Part shown: piece by piece, positions 619 through 4,968 of the stretch
Position numbering within the stretch: position 1 is the stretch's first letter
Layout: each line of letters begins with the position of its first letter
Program-made: the position numbers and the translations under genes
DNA from: Byssovorax sp.
GTDB lineage: Bacteria > Myxococcota_A > Polyangia > Polyangiales > Polyangiaceae
Length of the DNA: 44,683 nucleotides
Assembly (NCBI GenBank): GCA_025362495.1
Contig: JANYGI010000223.1
Coordinates: 1-44,683 of the forward strand
Direction: 5' to 3'
The notes under the pieces: model-generated
Seen by the model: the letters and a program-made list of their open reading frames with translations, nothing else
What the model was told of the DNA's origin: nothing
Database searches by the model: none

Positions 619-1281
619 ATGAGCCATGATTACGTCAGCATTCTCGAGCGCGAGTCTTCCGCCTTGGTGGACTCGATTGACCGCGATCCGCTGATCGGGA
701 GCGTCATCCGCGGCGACGCGTCCCGTGAAACTTATGTGAGGTTCCTCGTGGGAACCTATCATTACCTCCGCTGGTCCGGCCCGCTCCTCGCGGAGACCGC
801 CGAAGGGCTCCGGCGCAGCGGCCGTTGCCCCTGGCTGCTGGCGATCGTCGATGCCAAGACGGCCGAGGAGTCACCGCACGATGGCTGGGTGCTCGACGAT
901 CTTCGCACGTGTGGAGTCAACGTCGAGCTCATCAAGGCCCAGCCGGCGCCGCGCGCCGTCGAGGCTTACGTCCAGTGGAGCCGTACCCTGTCGGACGAGG
1001 GCTCCCCGGCGTTCCTCGGCGCCGCCTACATGCTCGAGCTCATGTCGATGCGCCGCGCGAACATGGCTGCCGGAAACCTCCGAGCGCGCAAGGCGATCCC
1101 GAACATCGAAGGAGCGGTATCGTTCCTCGAGGGCCACGGCGACGCGGACGTGGGTCACATCGAGGAGCTGACCGTGATGCTGCGTTTGCTCACGGATCCG
1201 ACGGATCAGGCCGCCATCGTGCTCTCCGCGGCGGTGCTGCGCACCCTTTACCCGCGCTTCTTTCACGTCGTCGCGTCGTGA
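619..1281 (+). CDS. Heme-oxygenase-like diiron (HDO) / iron-containing redox enzyme family protein
   Basis: The 220-residue all-helical protein belongs to the TenA/PqqC/heme-oxygenase-like fold, the subgroup often annotated 'iron-containing redox enzyme'. It has the expected metal-ligand pattern: a Glu in the early helix after YHYLRW, then EESPHD near residues 83–88, and a late HGDADVGH (H-x3-D-x3-H) near residues 172–179. In characterised HDOs such residues bind two irons that activate O2 on fatty-acid or amino-acid-derived substrates. AGAGGA lies about seven bases before the ATG. The next gene, 107 bases on, is an N-acyltransferase, so a substrate relationship is plausible (inference). The substrate cannot be read from sequence. 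Confidence 0.75.
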   Translation: MSHDYVSILERESSALVDSIDRDPLIGSVIRGDASRETYVRFLVGTYHYLRWSGPLLAETAEGLRRSGRCPWLLAIVDAKTAEESPHDGWVLDDLRTCGVNVELIKAQPAPRAVEAYVQWSRTLSDEGSPAFLGAAYMLELMSMRRANMAAGNLRARKAIPNIEGAVSFLEGHGDADVGHIEELTVMLRLLTDPTDQAAIVLSAAVLRTLYPRFFHVVAS

Positions 1282-1316
1282 CGCCGCCTCAACACTGACA
1301 CTCTGAACACTCGATA

Positions 1317-1334
1317 GCTGCGCTGAGCCGCAGC
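1317..1334 (+). other. Short hairpin between HDO and acyltransferase genes
   Basis: GCTGCG pairs with CGCAGC across a six-base loop, shortly after the HDO stop codon. No T tract follows, so it may be a weak attenuator or an mRNA-stabilising stem rather than a true terminator. Confidence 0.25.
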
Positions 1335-1356
1335 GGTCGCCCACACCCCAATTCAA

Positions 1357-1374
1357 CCGGTCAGCGCTGACCGG
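1357..1374. promoter_or_regulatory. Perfect 18-bp palindrome just upstream of the acyltransferase RBS
   Basis: CCGGTCAGCGCTGACCGG is a perfect 9+9 palindrome ending 14 bases before the GTG start and a few bases before the GGGAGA ribosome-binding site. On DNA it could be an operator for a dimeric regulator (TetR-, LuxR- or MarR-like sites have this size). On RNA it would fold into a stem next to the RBS. No regulator gene sits beside it in this window. Confidence 0.5.
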
Positions 1375-1388
1375 ATCGGGAGAACCTC

Positions 1389-2171
1389 GTGCAAAAATTC
1401 CACTGCATCATCGCCACGACCGCACAGCAGATCCGCGACGCCCAGCGCCTGCGCTGGACGGTTTACGCGGAGGAAGAAGGCCTCCTCGGGGGCCCGACTC
1501 CCATCGACGGTCGAGAGATCGACGCCCGCGACTACTGCGAGGGAACGACTCACCTCCTCGTCTACGATGGTCAGGAGGCCGCCGGCACGGTGCGCCTGCT
1601 CGAGCCCCGAGGCTCTCTCGGACTCGATCTCTCGGCGAAGTTCGATCTCGGGGCGCTCTCCGCGCCCGGGATCGCGCCGGCGGAAGTCACCCGCTACTGC
1701 GTCCTCCGTCGCTACCGGTGCACCGGCGTGACGAGCGCGCTCTTCTCGGGCCTTTACGCGGAGAGCTCGCGGCGTGGAGTGACCCACTGGGTCGCGGGCG
1801 CGAACATGGGGACAGACTGTGTCGAGGATGCAGCGCTCGCCCACCGCGTGGCCTGCGCCCAGGGGCTCATGAGCGAACGGTTCTCTGCCGCGGTCCGCGA
1901 TCGCGAGCCCGCGCAGACGCCGCGACGCCGCCCCGGCTACACCGACGAGCAGAGGCTCCGCGCGCAGGGCGGCGACCTCACGGGGCTGGAGCTGCCGCGT
2001 ACGCTCTCGCTCTTCGCGAAGCGGATGGGCGGTCGTTACCTCGGGTTGCCCGCATACGACGCCTATTTCAACGTGTTCGCGCTCCCCCTGGTCGCGACGC
2101 TCGCCGACATCGCCGCCCGGCGGTCGCCCGCGGCGAGCCCGGAGAGAGCGGTCGCCGAAGGCCTCGCCTGA
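1389..2171 (+). CDS. GNAT-fold N-acyltransferase, FeeM / autoinducer-synthase-like
   Basis: The 260-residue protein resembles the LuxI/FeeM-like N-acyltransferases that move acyl chains from ACP or CoA to amino compounds. The N-terminus shows RDAQRLRWTVYAEEEG, the typical 'R..R..vY..E.G' opening. The core includes EVTRYCVLRRYRCTG before the acyl-donor-binding helix, and the C-terminus has GGRYLGLPAYDAYFNVFALP, like the ending of FeeM/OlsB-type enzymes. The start is GTG, six bases after GGGAGA. Likely products are N-acyl amino acids or a related signal/lipid, but neither substrate is visible. The preceding HDO gene and following sigma/kinase genes run on the same strand. The family call is moderate to good; a signalling role is inferred. 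Confidence 0.7.
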   Translation: MQKFHCIIATTAQQIRDAQRLRWTVYAEEEGLLGGPTPIDGREIDARDYCEGTTHLLVYDGQEAAGTVRLLEPRGSLGLDLSAKFDLGALSAPGIAPAEVTRYCVLRRYRCTGVTSALFSGLYAESSRRGVTHWVAGANMGTDCVEDAALAHRVACAQGLMSERFSAAVRDREPAQTPRRRPGYTDEQRLRAQGGDLTGLELPRTLSLFAKRMGGRYLGLPAYDAYFNVFALPLVATLADIAARRSPAASPERAVAEGLA

Positions 2172-2188
2172 AAAAAACGACGCGATCC

Positions 2189-2216
2189 CGTGTAACCCCG
2201 GCGCGGCGTTCCTGTA
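2189..2216 (+). promoter_or_regulatory. Possible ECF-type promoter upstream of the sigma/kinase operon
   Basis: CGTGTAAC at 2189–2196 with TGTA at 2213–2216 gives TGTAAC-N16-TGTA, matching the motif before the HDO gene. The purine-rich stretch AGAGGCAGGAAA follows, just before an ATG at 2237. If real, it could be autoregulated by the ECF factor encoded downstream. Confidence 0.35.
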
Positions 2217-2449
2217 CCCGGACAAGAGGCAGGAAAATGAAGACTGAACGCTCGCCGATCCATATCCCGGTCGAAGCTGGTTGCGCCAACGACACCGCGC
2301 GTCCGTCGATCGCTCCTCCTGCCTCCGGGCGGAGGAGCATCGTCGCCCCGAGCGGCGCCGCGCTGCTCGGAAGCTTTGCTGGCTTCGAGCTCGATTGGGC
2401 CGATGAGGCTACCCCGAAACGAGATAAGGTCCCGCGGGGGACCCCACCG

Positions 2450-3145
2450 ATGAAACCAAGTGGGCGCGAGTTCCCGACGACGAGATGGACGCTGGTCTGC
2501 GCTGGGGCGGCCTCGCCCGCGGCGCTGCAAGAGCTCTGCGCGGCCTATCACCGCCCACTCCTGGCCTTTGCGCGCATGATCGAGTTCGATCCCCAGCGCG
2601 CGGAGGACCTGGTCCAGAGCTTCCTGATCAGGATTCTCGAGCAGAAGGTGGTCGACAAGGCGGACCAAGCGCGGGGGCGCTTCCGCACGTTCCTGCGCCA
2701 GGCGCTGCGAAACCACGCGATCAACCTCCATCGCGCCGAGAAGGCTACGAGGCGCGGCGGCAAAGCAACCTTCGTCGAGCCGGCCGAAGGCGAGATCGCG
2801 AGCGAGGCTCTCGCGGCCGACCGGCTCTACGATCGGGCCTGGGCGCGCGCGCTGGTTGATCGGGCGCTCGCGCGGCTCCGCGACGAGCGGCGGTCCCGAT
2901 CCGGCAACCCGGCGGTCTTCGAAGCGCTCGCTGACCGGCTCGAGGGCGATGACGACGGAGCGACGCTGCTCGAGGTGGCATCGAAGCTCGGCATGAGCGA
3001 GGTTGCGGTGAAGGTGTCGCTCTTCCGGTTGCGGCGGCGCTATTTCGATCTGGTCCGCGCCGAGGTCGGGGCCACGGTAGAGCGGCCCGAAGACGTGGAT
3101 CCCGAGCTCTGCTCCCTGCGCGCCGCGCTGAGGGGTGAAGGGTGA
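2450..3145 (+). CDS. ECF-like RNA polymerase sigma factor paired with a Ser/Thr kinase
   Basis: The 231-residue protein opens with [10 protein letters not shown], the hallmark start of the sigma subgroup found beside kinases in planctomycetes and myxobacteria. Region 2 contains [15 protein letters not shown]. Region 4 has [20 protein letters not shown] followed by [13 protein letters not shown]. This ATG has GGGGGA eight bases upstream. An in-frame ATG at 2237 with a good AGGAAA RBS would add a 71-residue N-terminal extension without a recognisable domain; homology of the family start favours 2450, the promoter-like site at 2189 favours 2237. The stop overlaps the kinase start by four bases (GTGA), so the two are translationally coupled and the kinase probably controls the sigma factor (inference). 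Confidence 0.8.
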
Positions 3146-4968
3146 TCGCTCGCGAAAATTGCCCCCGTTGCGGGGCCCAGGTCGACCCCGAGGGATCGTG
3201 CGCAGCGTGCCTGATCACCGCGGCGATCACCCGCCCCGAGGCGCCGGATCTCACCGGGGCAAAGATTGGCCCCTACGAGATCGGTCGCATCCTCGGGCAA
3301 GGCGGCGTCGGCGTGGTGTACGAAGCCGTGGATACCCGCCCCACGTCGTGCCGTTTCGGTCACACCGTTGCGCTCAAGGTCCTCGCCGCCGACTTCGATG
3401 CCTCCGATCACCTCGTGCGCGAGGCGCAGCTCATGGCGTCCCTGGACCACGATCATATCGTGCCGGTGTACGAGGTGGGCGAGGACGAAGGGATCGCCTA
3501 TTTCACGATGAAGCGCATCGACGGCGGGCGGCTCGTGACCCCCGCCGGAGGCGCGCGGCGCGCCGCGGAGGTCGCTCTCGCCATCGCCCGCGCGGTGGAG
3601 TTCGCGCACCGACATGGCATCTTGCACCGCGACCTCAAACCCGCCAACGTGCTCGTCGATAGCACGGGGCGAGTCTTCGTCACCGATTTTGGCCTGGCCG
3701 CGCGCGACACCCTCCATGCCAGCGCGGCGGTCGCGCTGGGCGGAACACCGCAGTACATGGCCCCCGAGGTGTGGAAAAGCGAGCCTGGAGCCGCGTCCAC
3801 CGCTGCGGATGTGTGGGGCGCAGGAGCCATCCTGTACGAGCTGCTGGCGGGACGCCCACCCTTCGAGGGCTCCACGCTGGACGAGCTCCAGCGCCGGGTA
3901 ACGACGGAGTCGCCGGCGCCGCTCGCGGGTGTTGATCCGGATCTCGCGGCGGTGTGCCTCCACTGTCTGGCGAAAGATCCCTCTCGCCGCTACGCGACGG
4001 CAGGGGCGCTGGCGGTCGATCTCGCGCTGTTCCTCGCAAAGGAGCCTGTCAGTCAGGAAGCGCGCCCGCTCGGCCGCGGCCGACGCTGGCTCCGTCGGAT
4101 CGCGCGCCATCCGGTGATCGCCGGGCTCACAGTGCTCCTGCTGATCGCCGCGCTCCACGCCGTCGTCACGGCGCTCTCCCTCTCGCGCGCTCGCGATAGT
4201 GCACTTCGTGGCGCGGACGCCACCGCGCGGTCGCTGGCGCGCCTCACGGCGCTCCAATTCGATCGCTACAAGGCCACGGTCGAGGCCGCGGGCAGGGATC
4301 CACGCATCGCCCTCGCGATGGCCGATCCAGCGTCCTCCAAGGGCTCGAACGAGTGCGCCCGGCTACTCGCGGACACCCTCGGGCCCGACGTCGCCCCCAT
4401 CGCCTTGTGGTTCCTCGTCGACGAGAACGGCAAGCTCATTGCTGCCGCGCCGGCGCCACCCGACGTTCTCTGGGGACGGTCCTTCCAGTTTCGGGACTAC
4501 TTCCGCGGCGTCCAGGAGCAGGAGCGAGCACAGCGCCGGAATGCCTACGTCTCGCGCGTCTATCGCTCCGAGGGCAACGGTGAATACGGGATCACGATCG
4601 CTGTCGCCCTCCACGACGCCGACGGCCGCTGGACCGGGCTCCTCGCCGGCGGCCTTCCAACCGGCTCGGCATTCGGCTCGATCGAGCTGGAGGAGTCCGG
4701 CAACGACGACTTCACAGTGGCGCTGCTCGCGCCCCGCGGCCCCGAGCGGGGAGAGTCGGAGACAATGCCTGGCCTGGCATTTCTCCAGCACCGCACCCTC
4801 CCTCGCGGACTGGCTCCCTCCGCTGGCCTCGGTGATGTGCTGGGCACGGACCGTGGTCAAAGCGGCCTGGTTCGCCTCGTCCCGGTACGGGGAACGCCCT
4901 TTTCCGTGCTGGTGCACGTTGCTTACGACGGCCCGCTCGCGGGCGCGTCAACCCCGCTCCAGCGCTGA
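3142..4968 (+). CDS. Membrane Ser/Thr protein kinase with N-terminal zinc ribbon and extracytoplasmic Cache-like sensor
   Basis: 608 residues, GTG start overlapping the sigma stop. Residues 7–26 form a zinc ribbon (CPRCG and CAAC). The kinase domain follows: glycine loop [10 protein letters not shown], Lys in VALKVLAA, catalytic loop [13 protein letters not shown] in [10 protein letters not shown], and APE in MAPEVW. A hydrophobic segment near residues 326–347 spans the membrane. The outer domain contains [15 protein letters not shown] and FQFRDYFRG, as in dCache ligand-binding domains. The architecture suggests that an external small molecule switches kinase activity and hence the adjacent sigma factor. 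All catalytic motifs are intact. The ligand is unknown; the neighbouring acyltransferase product is one speculative candidate. Confidence 0.88.

Follow-up and report, generated by a model that had tools for sequence, protein, structure and literature searches.

The question raised by the locus analyzed here is whether a myxobacterium, Byssovorax sp., makes an acyl compound with two neighbouring enzymes and, if so, which protein senses it. The window (the whole stretch of DNA analyzed) is an entire contig of 44,683 bases from a draft genome, here G000, of 10.8 Mb in 240 contigs, 96.56% complete. An earlier note had described near its start four genes on the same strand, and had read them as a make-and-sense system in which a membrane kinase would perceive the product of two enzymes and relay the signal to a sigma factor. 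The four open frames were present, with Pfam matches to the families which that note had named, as follows:

619 to 1281, + strand: candidate heme-oxygenase-like (Haem_oxygenas_2) non-heme di-metal oxidase (HDO), 220 amino acids, assigned by PF14518, ligand columns and profile
1389 to 2171, + strand: acyltransferase (AT) of the FeeM/LuxI superfamily, of GCN5-related N-acetyltransferase (GNAT) type, 260 amino acids, GTG start, assigned by Pfam FeeM, structural model, fold match and alignment to BjaI
2450 to 3145, + strand: extracytoplasmic function (ECF)-type sigma factor, outside the conserved pair, assigned by Sigma70_r2, with the start set by homology
3142 to 4968, + strand: membrane Ser/Thr kinase with an outer domain weakly like dCache_1, assigned by Pkinase, the dCache_1 match being below the cut-off

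These genes form two units, HDO plus AT, and sigma factor plus kinase. The reading preferred here, to which a probability of about 0.5 is given, is that the first unit, together with a LuxR-type regulator found beside it in relatives, constitutes a LuxI/LuxR-style module that makes an acyl amide, oxidizes it and senses it, the regulator having been lost or replaced in the genome of the window.

HDO and AT are a conserved pair, found side by side in several soil bacteria. In the main comparison set (183 genomes of the order), the AT search identified 14 places at E ≤ 1e-5, distributed over 12 genomes, with 13 of the places at E ≤ 1e-40; for HDO there were 21 places at E ≤ 1e-6, in 17 genomes. 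HDO was found within about 160 bp (match coordinates) of all 13 strong AT places, and also of the weak fourteenth one, a divergent copy in G159. Pyxidicoccus caerfyrddinensis, from another collection (L060), has the pair too, which makes 15 of 15 AT loci with an adjacent HDO. The earlier note had staked its idea on the two genes not being almost always apart in other genomes, and in this respect it was borne out. Considering the 21 HDO places, 14 adjoin AT, one is at a contig edge (G172), where AT could be cut off, one adjoins a protein that matches AT just weakly (G045, 3.4e-5), and the remaining five, all weak matches, had no AT within the 6–20 kb read. The gene order is variable, with AT first at some loci and HDO first at others. 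In a sample of the phylum (377 genomes), the AT match of 14 weak AT relatives was reconfirmed in each (all open frames) with no HDO nearby, the stretches L083, L084 and L145 among them being short (2.1–5.3 kb). A further collection of genome contigs yielded no relative when scanned with the single AT protein and eight loci in an alignment-based scan; it was reached via short peptide patterns, and relatives beyond the phylum are possible.

Clustering of the neighbouring genes revealed one further gene at 12 of the pair's loci, coding for a LuxR-type regulator with a GerE helix-turn-helix in 12 of 12 members (Pfam). A search of the 183 genomes with its profile found 14 loci, spread over 12 genomes, at E < 1e-90; the next matches were at 7.7e-15 or weaker, mostly restricted to the helix-turn-helix. 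The regulator was beside AT-HDO at 13 of these 14 loci, including that of the divergent second copy in G159, while the fourteenth (G155) is on an 8.3 kb contig that contains neither enzyme. The LuxR gene is co-directional with the pair in four loci and convergent in nine, and in G170 one gene intervenes between them. The five regulator loci that the phylum sample contained, from four genomes, were all among those counted here. Expressed per AT-HDO locus, 13 of 15 have the regulator nearby, the exceptions being the window and the Pyxidicoccus pair. Pyxidicoccus has two LuxR regulators, one beside a second HDO without AT and the other with neither enzyme in 20 kb. At the former (L206, 8416–10618) the HDO and LuxR genes are convergent; an 86-codon frame lies between them, and the 20 kb read contained no AT. 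As judged by this comparison of loci, the pair and the LuxR regulator are kept together despite changed order, orientation and neighbours, also in the divergent copy.

Classical LuxR receptors of N-acyl-homoserine lactones (AHL) have two domains and about 240 amino acids. For the regulator found here, 11 of the 12 gene calls give 331–364 amino acids and the remaining one 262, and its model displayed an extra, PAS-like middle domain; the regulator of G018:C1 is without it. The model, computed for the protein of strain So ce26, had a mean local confidence (pLDDT) of 79.4 and a predicted template modelling score (pTM) of 0.52. The top Foldseek matches of its N-terminal domain were AHL receptors, with fold scores of Z 15.3 for LasR (root-mean-square deviation, rmsd, 3.0 over 154) and 15.0 for CepR2. 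When compared to a LuxR-receptor profile, the N-terminal domain scored 29.9 over 133 columns, and 50 column shuffles gave at most 15.8. In the profile alignment the receptor Asp is kept, and two receptor Trp positions are occupied by other residues; given the roles of these positions in the receptors, the pattern would fit, speculatively, an amide ligand other than homoserine lactone. So, on the basis of the model, it can be said that the N-terminal domain belongs to the broad AHL-receptor/GAF fold, with a sequence that fits receptor and GAF alike.

That ambiguity leaves room for another interpretation of the same genes, namely that HDO and AT form a minimal operon that makes an N-acyl product (a lipid, an antibiotic, a metal binder or a protective compound) and that the LuxR protein is only a pathway switch sensing redox, light or another cue via its GAF-like domain, with no communication involved. 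It is possible, although doubtful. The GAF-like matches of the regulator agree with it, and so does the statement, in the available part of a review, that known HDOs mostly serve natural product pathways (PMC13108848). The HDO family occurs also in proteobacterial operons with T_hemolysin, AMP-ligase, HDO and short-chain dehydrogenase/reductase (SDR) genes, and in four such stretches no gene was annotated as LuxR family, response regulators being near in two. What counts against a mere pathway switch is that the regulator occurs almost only beside this pair (the 13 of 14 loci in the order), that AHL receptors head its fold matches, in a tie with others, and that, the regulator aside, no neighbour cluster was common to more than eight of the pair's loci.

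Candidate operators were found in part of the loci. Four related ones (G144, G018:C1, G169 and G172) all contain the palindrome CTGCYGCA-N3-TGCAGCA 150–155 bp before the HDO start, in upstream regions that otherwise align poorly. No other 20-column stretch of these regions is as well conserved (16 of the columns are identical), and 2 of 10,000 column shuffles reached this level. In G172, a short frame with a helix-turn-helix-level match to the LuxR profile (L050, 998–1321; 3.3e-9) lies divergent before HDO, beside the palindrome. Another palindrome, TTGCGYGATCRCGCAA, is seen in Polyangium; of six loci, two have it in perfect form and a third with a single mismatch. The Polyangium promoters upstream of AT (L009, L043, L044, L046, L047 and L049) contain a TTGCG-GATC-CGCAA palindrome plus two GGATCCACC repeats, one of which lies in a stretch of at least 19 bases identical across the six loci. 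Neither palindrome pattern occurs near the pair of the window. A single operator common to all lineages was also considered, and no such element was found in the upstream regions.

Concerning the AT protein, it matched PF13444 (3.2e-9) and the FeeM family PF21926 (1e-7; 32.3 bits versus 27), both above the Pfam cut-off. Its model (pLDDT 83.0, pTM 0.81) had FeeM itself (2g0b) as the best fold match, with Z 18.0 and rmsd 2.6 over 171 residues, the next chain scoring 15.7 and the AHL synthases TofI, LasI, RpaI and BjaI 13.7–14.2. In the alignment with the AHL synthase BjaI, residues E43, D45, D48, R69, E99 and R102 of the window protein are identical. Throughout the family, R22, R69, E99, T142 and D143 are invariant in 15 of 15 rows, D48 and R102 are kept in 14 and D45 in 13, the exceptions being G147 (gapped at 45 and 48, Gly at 102) and Pyxidicoccus (Ser at 45). 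A conserved N-terminal Trp is a hallmark of the LuxI AHL synthases. In AT the BjaI Trp stands opposite a non-Trp consensus, with no Trp at residue 34 of the window protein or in the column, and the NCBIfam threshold for AHL synthases was not reached (15.6 bits versus a cut-off of 250). AT is thus predicted, from model and alignment, to have the FeeM/AHL-synthase fold with the AHL-synthase active-site residues kept.

The HDO protein matched PF14518 at E 1.1e-10 (42 bits versus a cut-off of 28.9). By alignment opposite the CADD ligand motif, its probable metal ligands are E83 or E84, H87, E140, H173, D177 and H180. The set of three His and three carboxylates is complete in 14 of 15 alignment rows: E83, E84, H87, H173, D177 and H180 are kept in all 15 and E140 in 14, the divergent G159 copy having Ser at this position. 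The window protein is a candidate di-metal oxidase, which may catalyze an O2-dependent oxidation. By profile, the nearest solved chains were 3dde (1.9e-17) and then CADD (0.0014).

The presence of CADD among the few solved HDO relatives, together with the weak match of AT to OlsB models, gives some ground for taking HDO as a self-sacrificing p-aminobenzoate synthase of the CADD kind, or else as an unrelated stress enzyme, AT as an OlsB-like lipid enzyme, and their linkage as a reflection of shared expression only. This is improbable. The OlsB cut-offs were far off (33.9 versus 350 bits), and the close link to a dedicated regulator would be left unexplained. Moreover, residue 27 of CADD, which is the sacrificed Tyr27 according to the available part of the review (PMC13108848), stands opposite a non-Tyr residue, at the edge of a weak alignment.

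G000 has a second, distant HDO (G000:C193; L010, 9466–16893) within a run of genes, its neighbours being PGA_cap, a fatty acid desaturase, a phospholipid methyltransferase, two proteins without Pfam match and a phosphoglucomutase. At L051 (9453–11227) the gene after an HDO codes for a protein that matches AT weakly and has an apparent cyclic-nucleotide-binding region.

The second unit of the window behaved differently. The sigma factor matched Sigma70_r2 at 5.3e-9, and most full-length homologues align to it from residue 1–10, in agreement with the start at 2450; an in-frame ATG with a ribosome-site-like stretch occurs at 2237, 71 codons before that start and some 20 bases past a promoter-like box. 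The kinase, whose start at 3142 overlaps the sigma stop, matched Pkinase at 1.2e-44 with a visible DFG, which supports the identity given in the earlier note; the outer domain called Cache-like there gave just a weak match (dCache_1, 24.3 bits versus a curated cut-off of 45). Among the 183 genomes, the outer part of the kinase was found in 8 (that of the window and 7 others) and the sigma factor in 28. Both are together in G161, G159, G158, G170, G152 and G147, and also in G045, on a 3.8 kb contig. Of the first six, G147 alone has HDO-AT near the pair (about 3 kb, opposite strand); in G161, G159, G158, G170 and G152 neither HDO nor AT occurred in the 16–20 kb read around it, and four of these genomes (G158, G159, G161 and G170) carry HDO-AT elsewhere.

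The linkage of sigma factor and kinase to HDO-AT that the earlier note had assumed was thus largely contradicted, as the two units are near each other in one of six other readable genomes, and the kinase was discarded as the ancestral partner of HDO-AT. This bears directly on the circuit originally proposed, in which the outer domain of the kinase would sense the HDO/AT product and activate the adjoining sigma factor, which would drive HDO-AT. The adjacency in the window genome, the G147 pair some 3 kb from HDO-AT and the similar boxes before HDO and sigma speak for such a circuit, for which the ECF43 group offers a precedent: in this group, Hanks kinases phosphorylate the partner sigma factor, which carries a QTTA motif in region 2.2, according to the available part of the source (PMC13147305). 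Nevertheless, it is very improbable, given the five of six genomes with the units apart, the modest statistics of the boxes, and the fact that the G147 sigma factor by HDO-AT is not the best match of the window sigma factor in that genome (2.0e-11 versus 2.9e-29). Of the make-and-sense idea, then, what gained support is a sensor linked to the pair, in the form of a LuxR-type regulator; for the kinase as sensor nothing was found beyond the similar boxes.

These boxes and the genes that precede HDO are the following:

506 to 533, + strand: promoter-like box CGTGTAAC-N16-TGAA, upstream of HDO, from pattern and shuffle statistics
2189 to 2216, + strand: promoter-like box CGTGTAAC-N16-TGTA, upstream of the sigma gene, from pattern and shuffle statistics
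3 to 233, + strand: 3' part of a second ECF sigma gene, truncated by the contig start, with Sigma70 region 4 matches slightly below the Pfam cut-offs
230 to 475, + strand: anti-sigma-like protein (weak, ChrR / zf-HC2 type) overlapping the sigma stop, with TIGR02451 at 8.7e-5 and zf-HC2 at 0.018, both below cut-off

The window has exactly two copies of the element CGTGTAAC, at 506 and 2189, where 0.20 occurrences were expected, and two or more were obtained in 3 of 100 shuffles. Over 28 bases, the two intergenic regions agree at best in 20, a figure that 2.2% of 1000 shuffled pairs also attained; the longest stretch that they share exactly is 8 bases, attained by 58% of the shuffled pairs. The pattern CGTGTAAC-N16-TGWA has five matches in the 10.8 Mb genome, two of them being the window boxes; a wider CGTGTAAC regulon was rejected, since two of the other three matches are inside gene calls and one is intergenic about 0.9 kb before the nearest same-strand gene. 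So, the shared boxes described in the earlier note are both there, with modest statistics that make them suggestive only, and their similarity hints weakly at co-regulation of HDO and sigma. As to the genes upstream, the sigma fragment and the overlapping anti-sigma-like gene (3–475) directly precede HDO in the window, and the Pyxidicoccus AT-HDO pair is likewise directly preceded by a sigma gene and a DUF4384 gene (L060, 8554–9845).

No orthologue of the LuxR regulator was found in the G000 assembly by the profile search. The HDO-AT pair of the window clusters with that of G147, with support of 100 in the HDO tree, 77 with AT alone and 100 with the joined data. As the LuxR gene is present in G147, the simplest account is that it was lost or exchanged on the way to the window genome, unless it is located in an assembly gap. 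On the best reading of the sequences, then, the ancestral sensor would be the LuxR protein, lost or replaced in the window genome.

The conservation of the trio was established by comparison of loci; the chemistry, the ligand binding and the direction of control are inferred. AT would transfer a thioester-bound acyl chain to an amino compound, and HDO would act as a tailoring enzyme by oxidizing the AT product or a precursor. The LuxR protein may bind the product and control the operon, in one clade through the palindrome 150–155 bp upstream. Together, the three would form a circuit of the LuxI/LuxR kind, serving signalling or self-sensing, with tailoring by oxidation and probably no homoserine lactone. 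In the window genome, control may have been lost, or moved to the adjoining sigma factor, whose gene has a promoter-like box resembling that of HDO. A more detailed proposal can be made tentatively: an undescribed, quorum-sensing-like family of myxobacteria in which a FeeM/LuxI-fold synthase and HDO make an oxidized N-acyl amide that is read by a three-domain LuxR protein, the lineage of the window having been rewired to an ECF sigma factor and a Ser/Thr kinase.

Several observations weigh against the LuxI/LuxR-style interpretation. Concerning the regulator, Pfam GAF_2 matched 7 of 12 members (weakly) and Autoind_bind matched one of 12 (E 0.0016). In the fold comparison of its N-terminal domain, a response-regulator domain of Nostoc (3p01) tied with the receptors (Z 14.8), and the GAF domain of PDE5A reached 13.9. 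The match to the LuxR-receptor profile has a reported probability of just 35.5%, twelve single receptors matched poorly (≤3.2%), and the GAF-bearing FhlA scored 27.0. The association is not universal, as 2 of 15 AT-HDO loci have no regulator nearby and, of 16 LuxR loci, 2 show neither HDO nor AT in their surroundings (one of these on the 8.3 kb contig). In the fold list of AT, the AHL synthases are not above unrelated GNATs. The upstream palindrome comes from four loci of one clade, three of which (G018:C1, G169 and G172) belong to one genus; its shuffle test ignores relatedness, and at L045 it is also about 80 bp from a divergent gene. The genome count of the box pattern (five) is not above that of the reversed control (six), and the pattern was derived from the two sites themselves. 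Finally, G000 is a draft whose contig starts 618 bases before HDO (window position 1), and the LuxR gene could sit in a gap.

Myxobacteria are social predators. The occurrence of the trio in sequenced Sorangium and Polyangium strains makes a diffusible acyl signal of myxobacteria directly testable, and, if the interpretation is true, HDO enzymes would acquire a function in the chemistry of signals; the window contributes an example of a regulator seemingly lost or exchanged. Among the top-ranked matches, by titles and abstract beginnings, of the open-licence literature, there was no description of a trio of HDO, FeeM/LuxI-like enzyme and LuxR. The available part of PMC7862692 states that AHL production had not previously been observed in any myxobacterium, reports a solo synthase, and describes the known myxobacterial AHL synthases as lacking a linked receptor; that of a 2026 preprint (PMC12919014) states that a complete LuxR/LuxI system is not documented in any myxobacterium. 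As for HDOs, the terms acyltransferase, GNAT, N-acyl and quorum do not occur in the main text available of the review PMC13108848, and the mangotoxin paper, in its available part, surveyed HDO neighbourhoods for ATP-grasp ligases (PMC13185094).

Comparison with known systems places the module between several of them. The described HDO enzymes (UndA, SznF, BesC, AetD, MboA and CADD) share with the window HDO the PF14518 family and the complete ligand set, but the latter has no close solved relative, the best one, 3dde, being itself a protein without assigned function, and its partner is a FeeM-like acyltransferase, accompanied in relatives by the LuxR regulator. The proteobacterial T_hemolysin operons contain a homologous HDO (26–31% identity), but carry an extra ligase and SDR; T_hemolysin was discarded as an AT homologue, with no detectable profile similarity (four-row profile). 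The four stretches of this type are plasmid records, from 23 with an HDO match, and all carry T_hemolysin, AMP-ligase, HDO and SDR in one order (L173, 4871–8524; L174, 4825–8505; L175, 4882–8417; L176, 5025–8345); in L176 the HDO match is inside the AMP-ligase gene, and two-component or sigma/FecR genes are near some of these loci. With the ECF43 pairs (EcfP-PknT and EcfK-PknS) the window has in common a membrane Ser/Thr kinase gene overlapping an ECF sigma gene, but its sigma factor has an acidic RAEDLVQ stretch in place of the QTTA motif.

The closest likenesses are to acyl-signal enzymes. FeeM-type N-acyl amino acid synthases share with the window AT the Pfam family, above cut-off, and the best fold match, but their chains are shorter (170–190 versus 260 amino acids), and AT is partnered instead with HDO and, in relatives, with LuxR. 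The parallels with LuxI/LuxR quorum sensing are the LuxI-superfamily fold and shared active-site residues of AT and, in relatives, a linked LuxR-type regulator with an N-terminal domain predicted to fold like the AHL-binding domain, plus an upstream palindrome in one clade. The differences are that AT is nearer FeeM than LuxI, far below the AHL-synthase cut-offs and without the LuxI Trp, that the module adds an HDO gene, that the regulator adds a middle domain and differs in two receptor Trp positions, and that the assembly of the window genome has no such regulator. Lastly, AgpI of Archangium gephyra is, like AT, a LuxI-superfamily enzyme of a myxobacterium; as described in the available part of PMC7862692 it is a LuxI without receptor, whereas AT is FeeM-like and mostly accompanied by HDO and LuxR.

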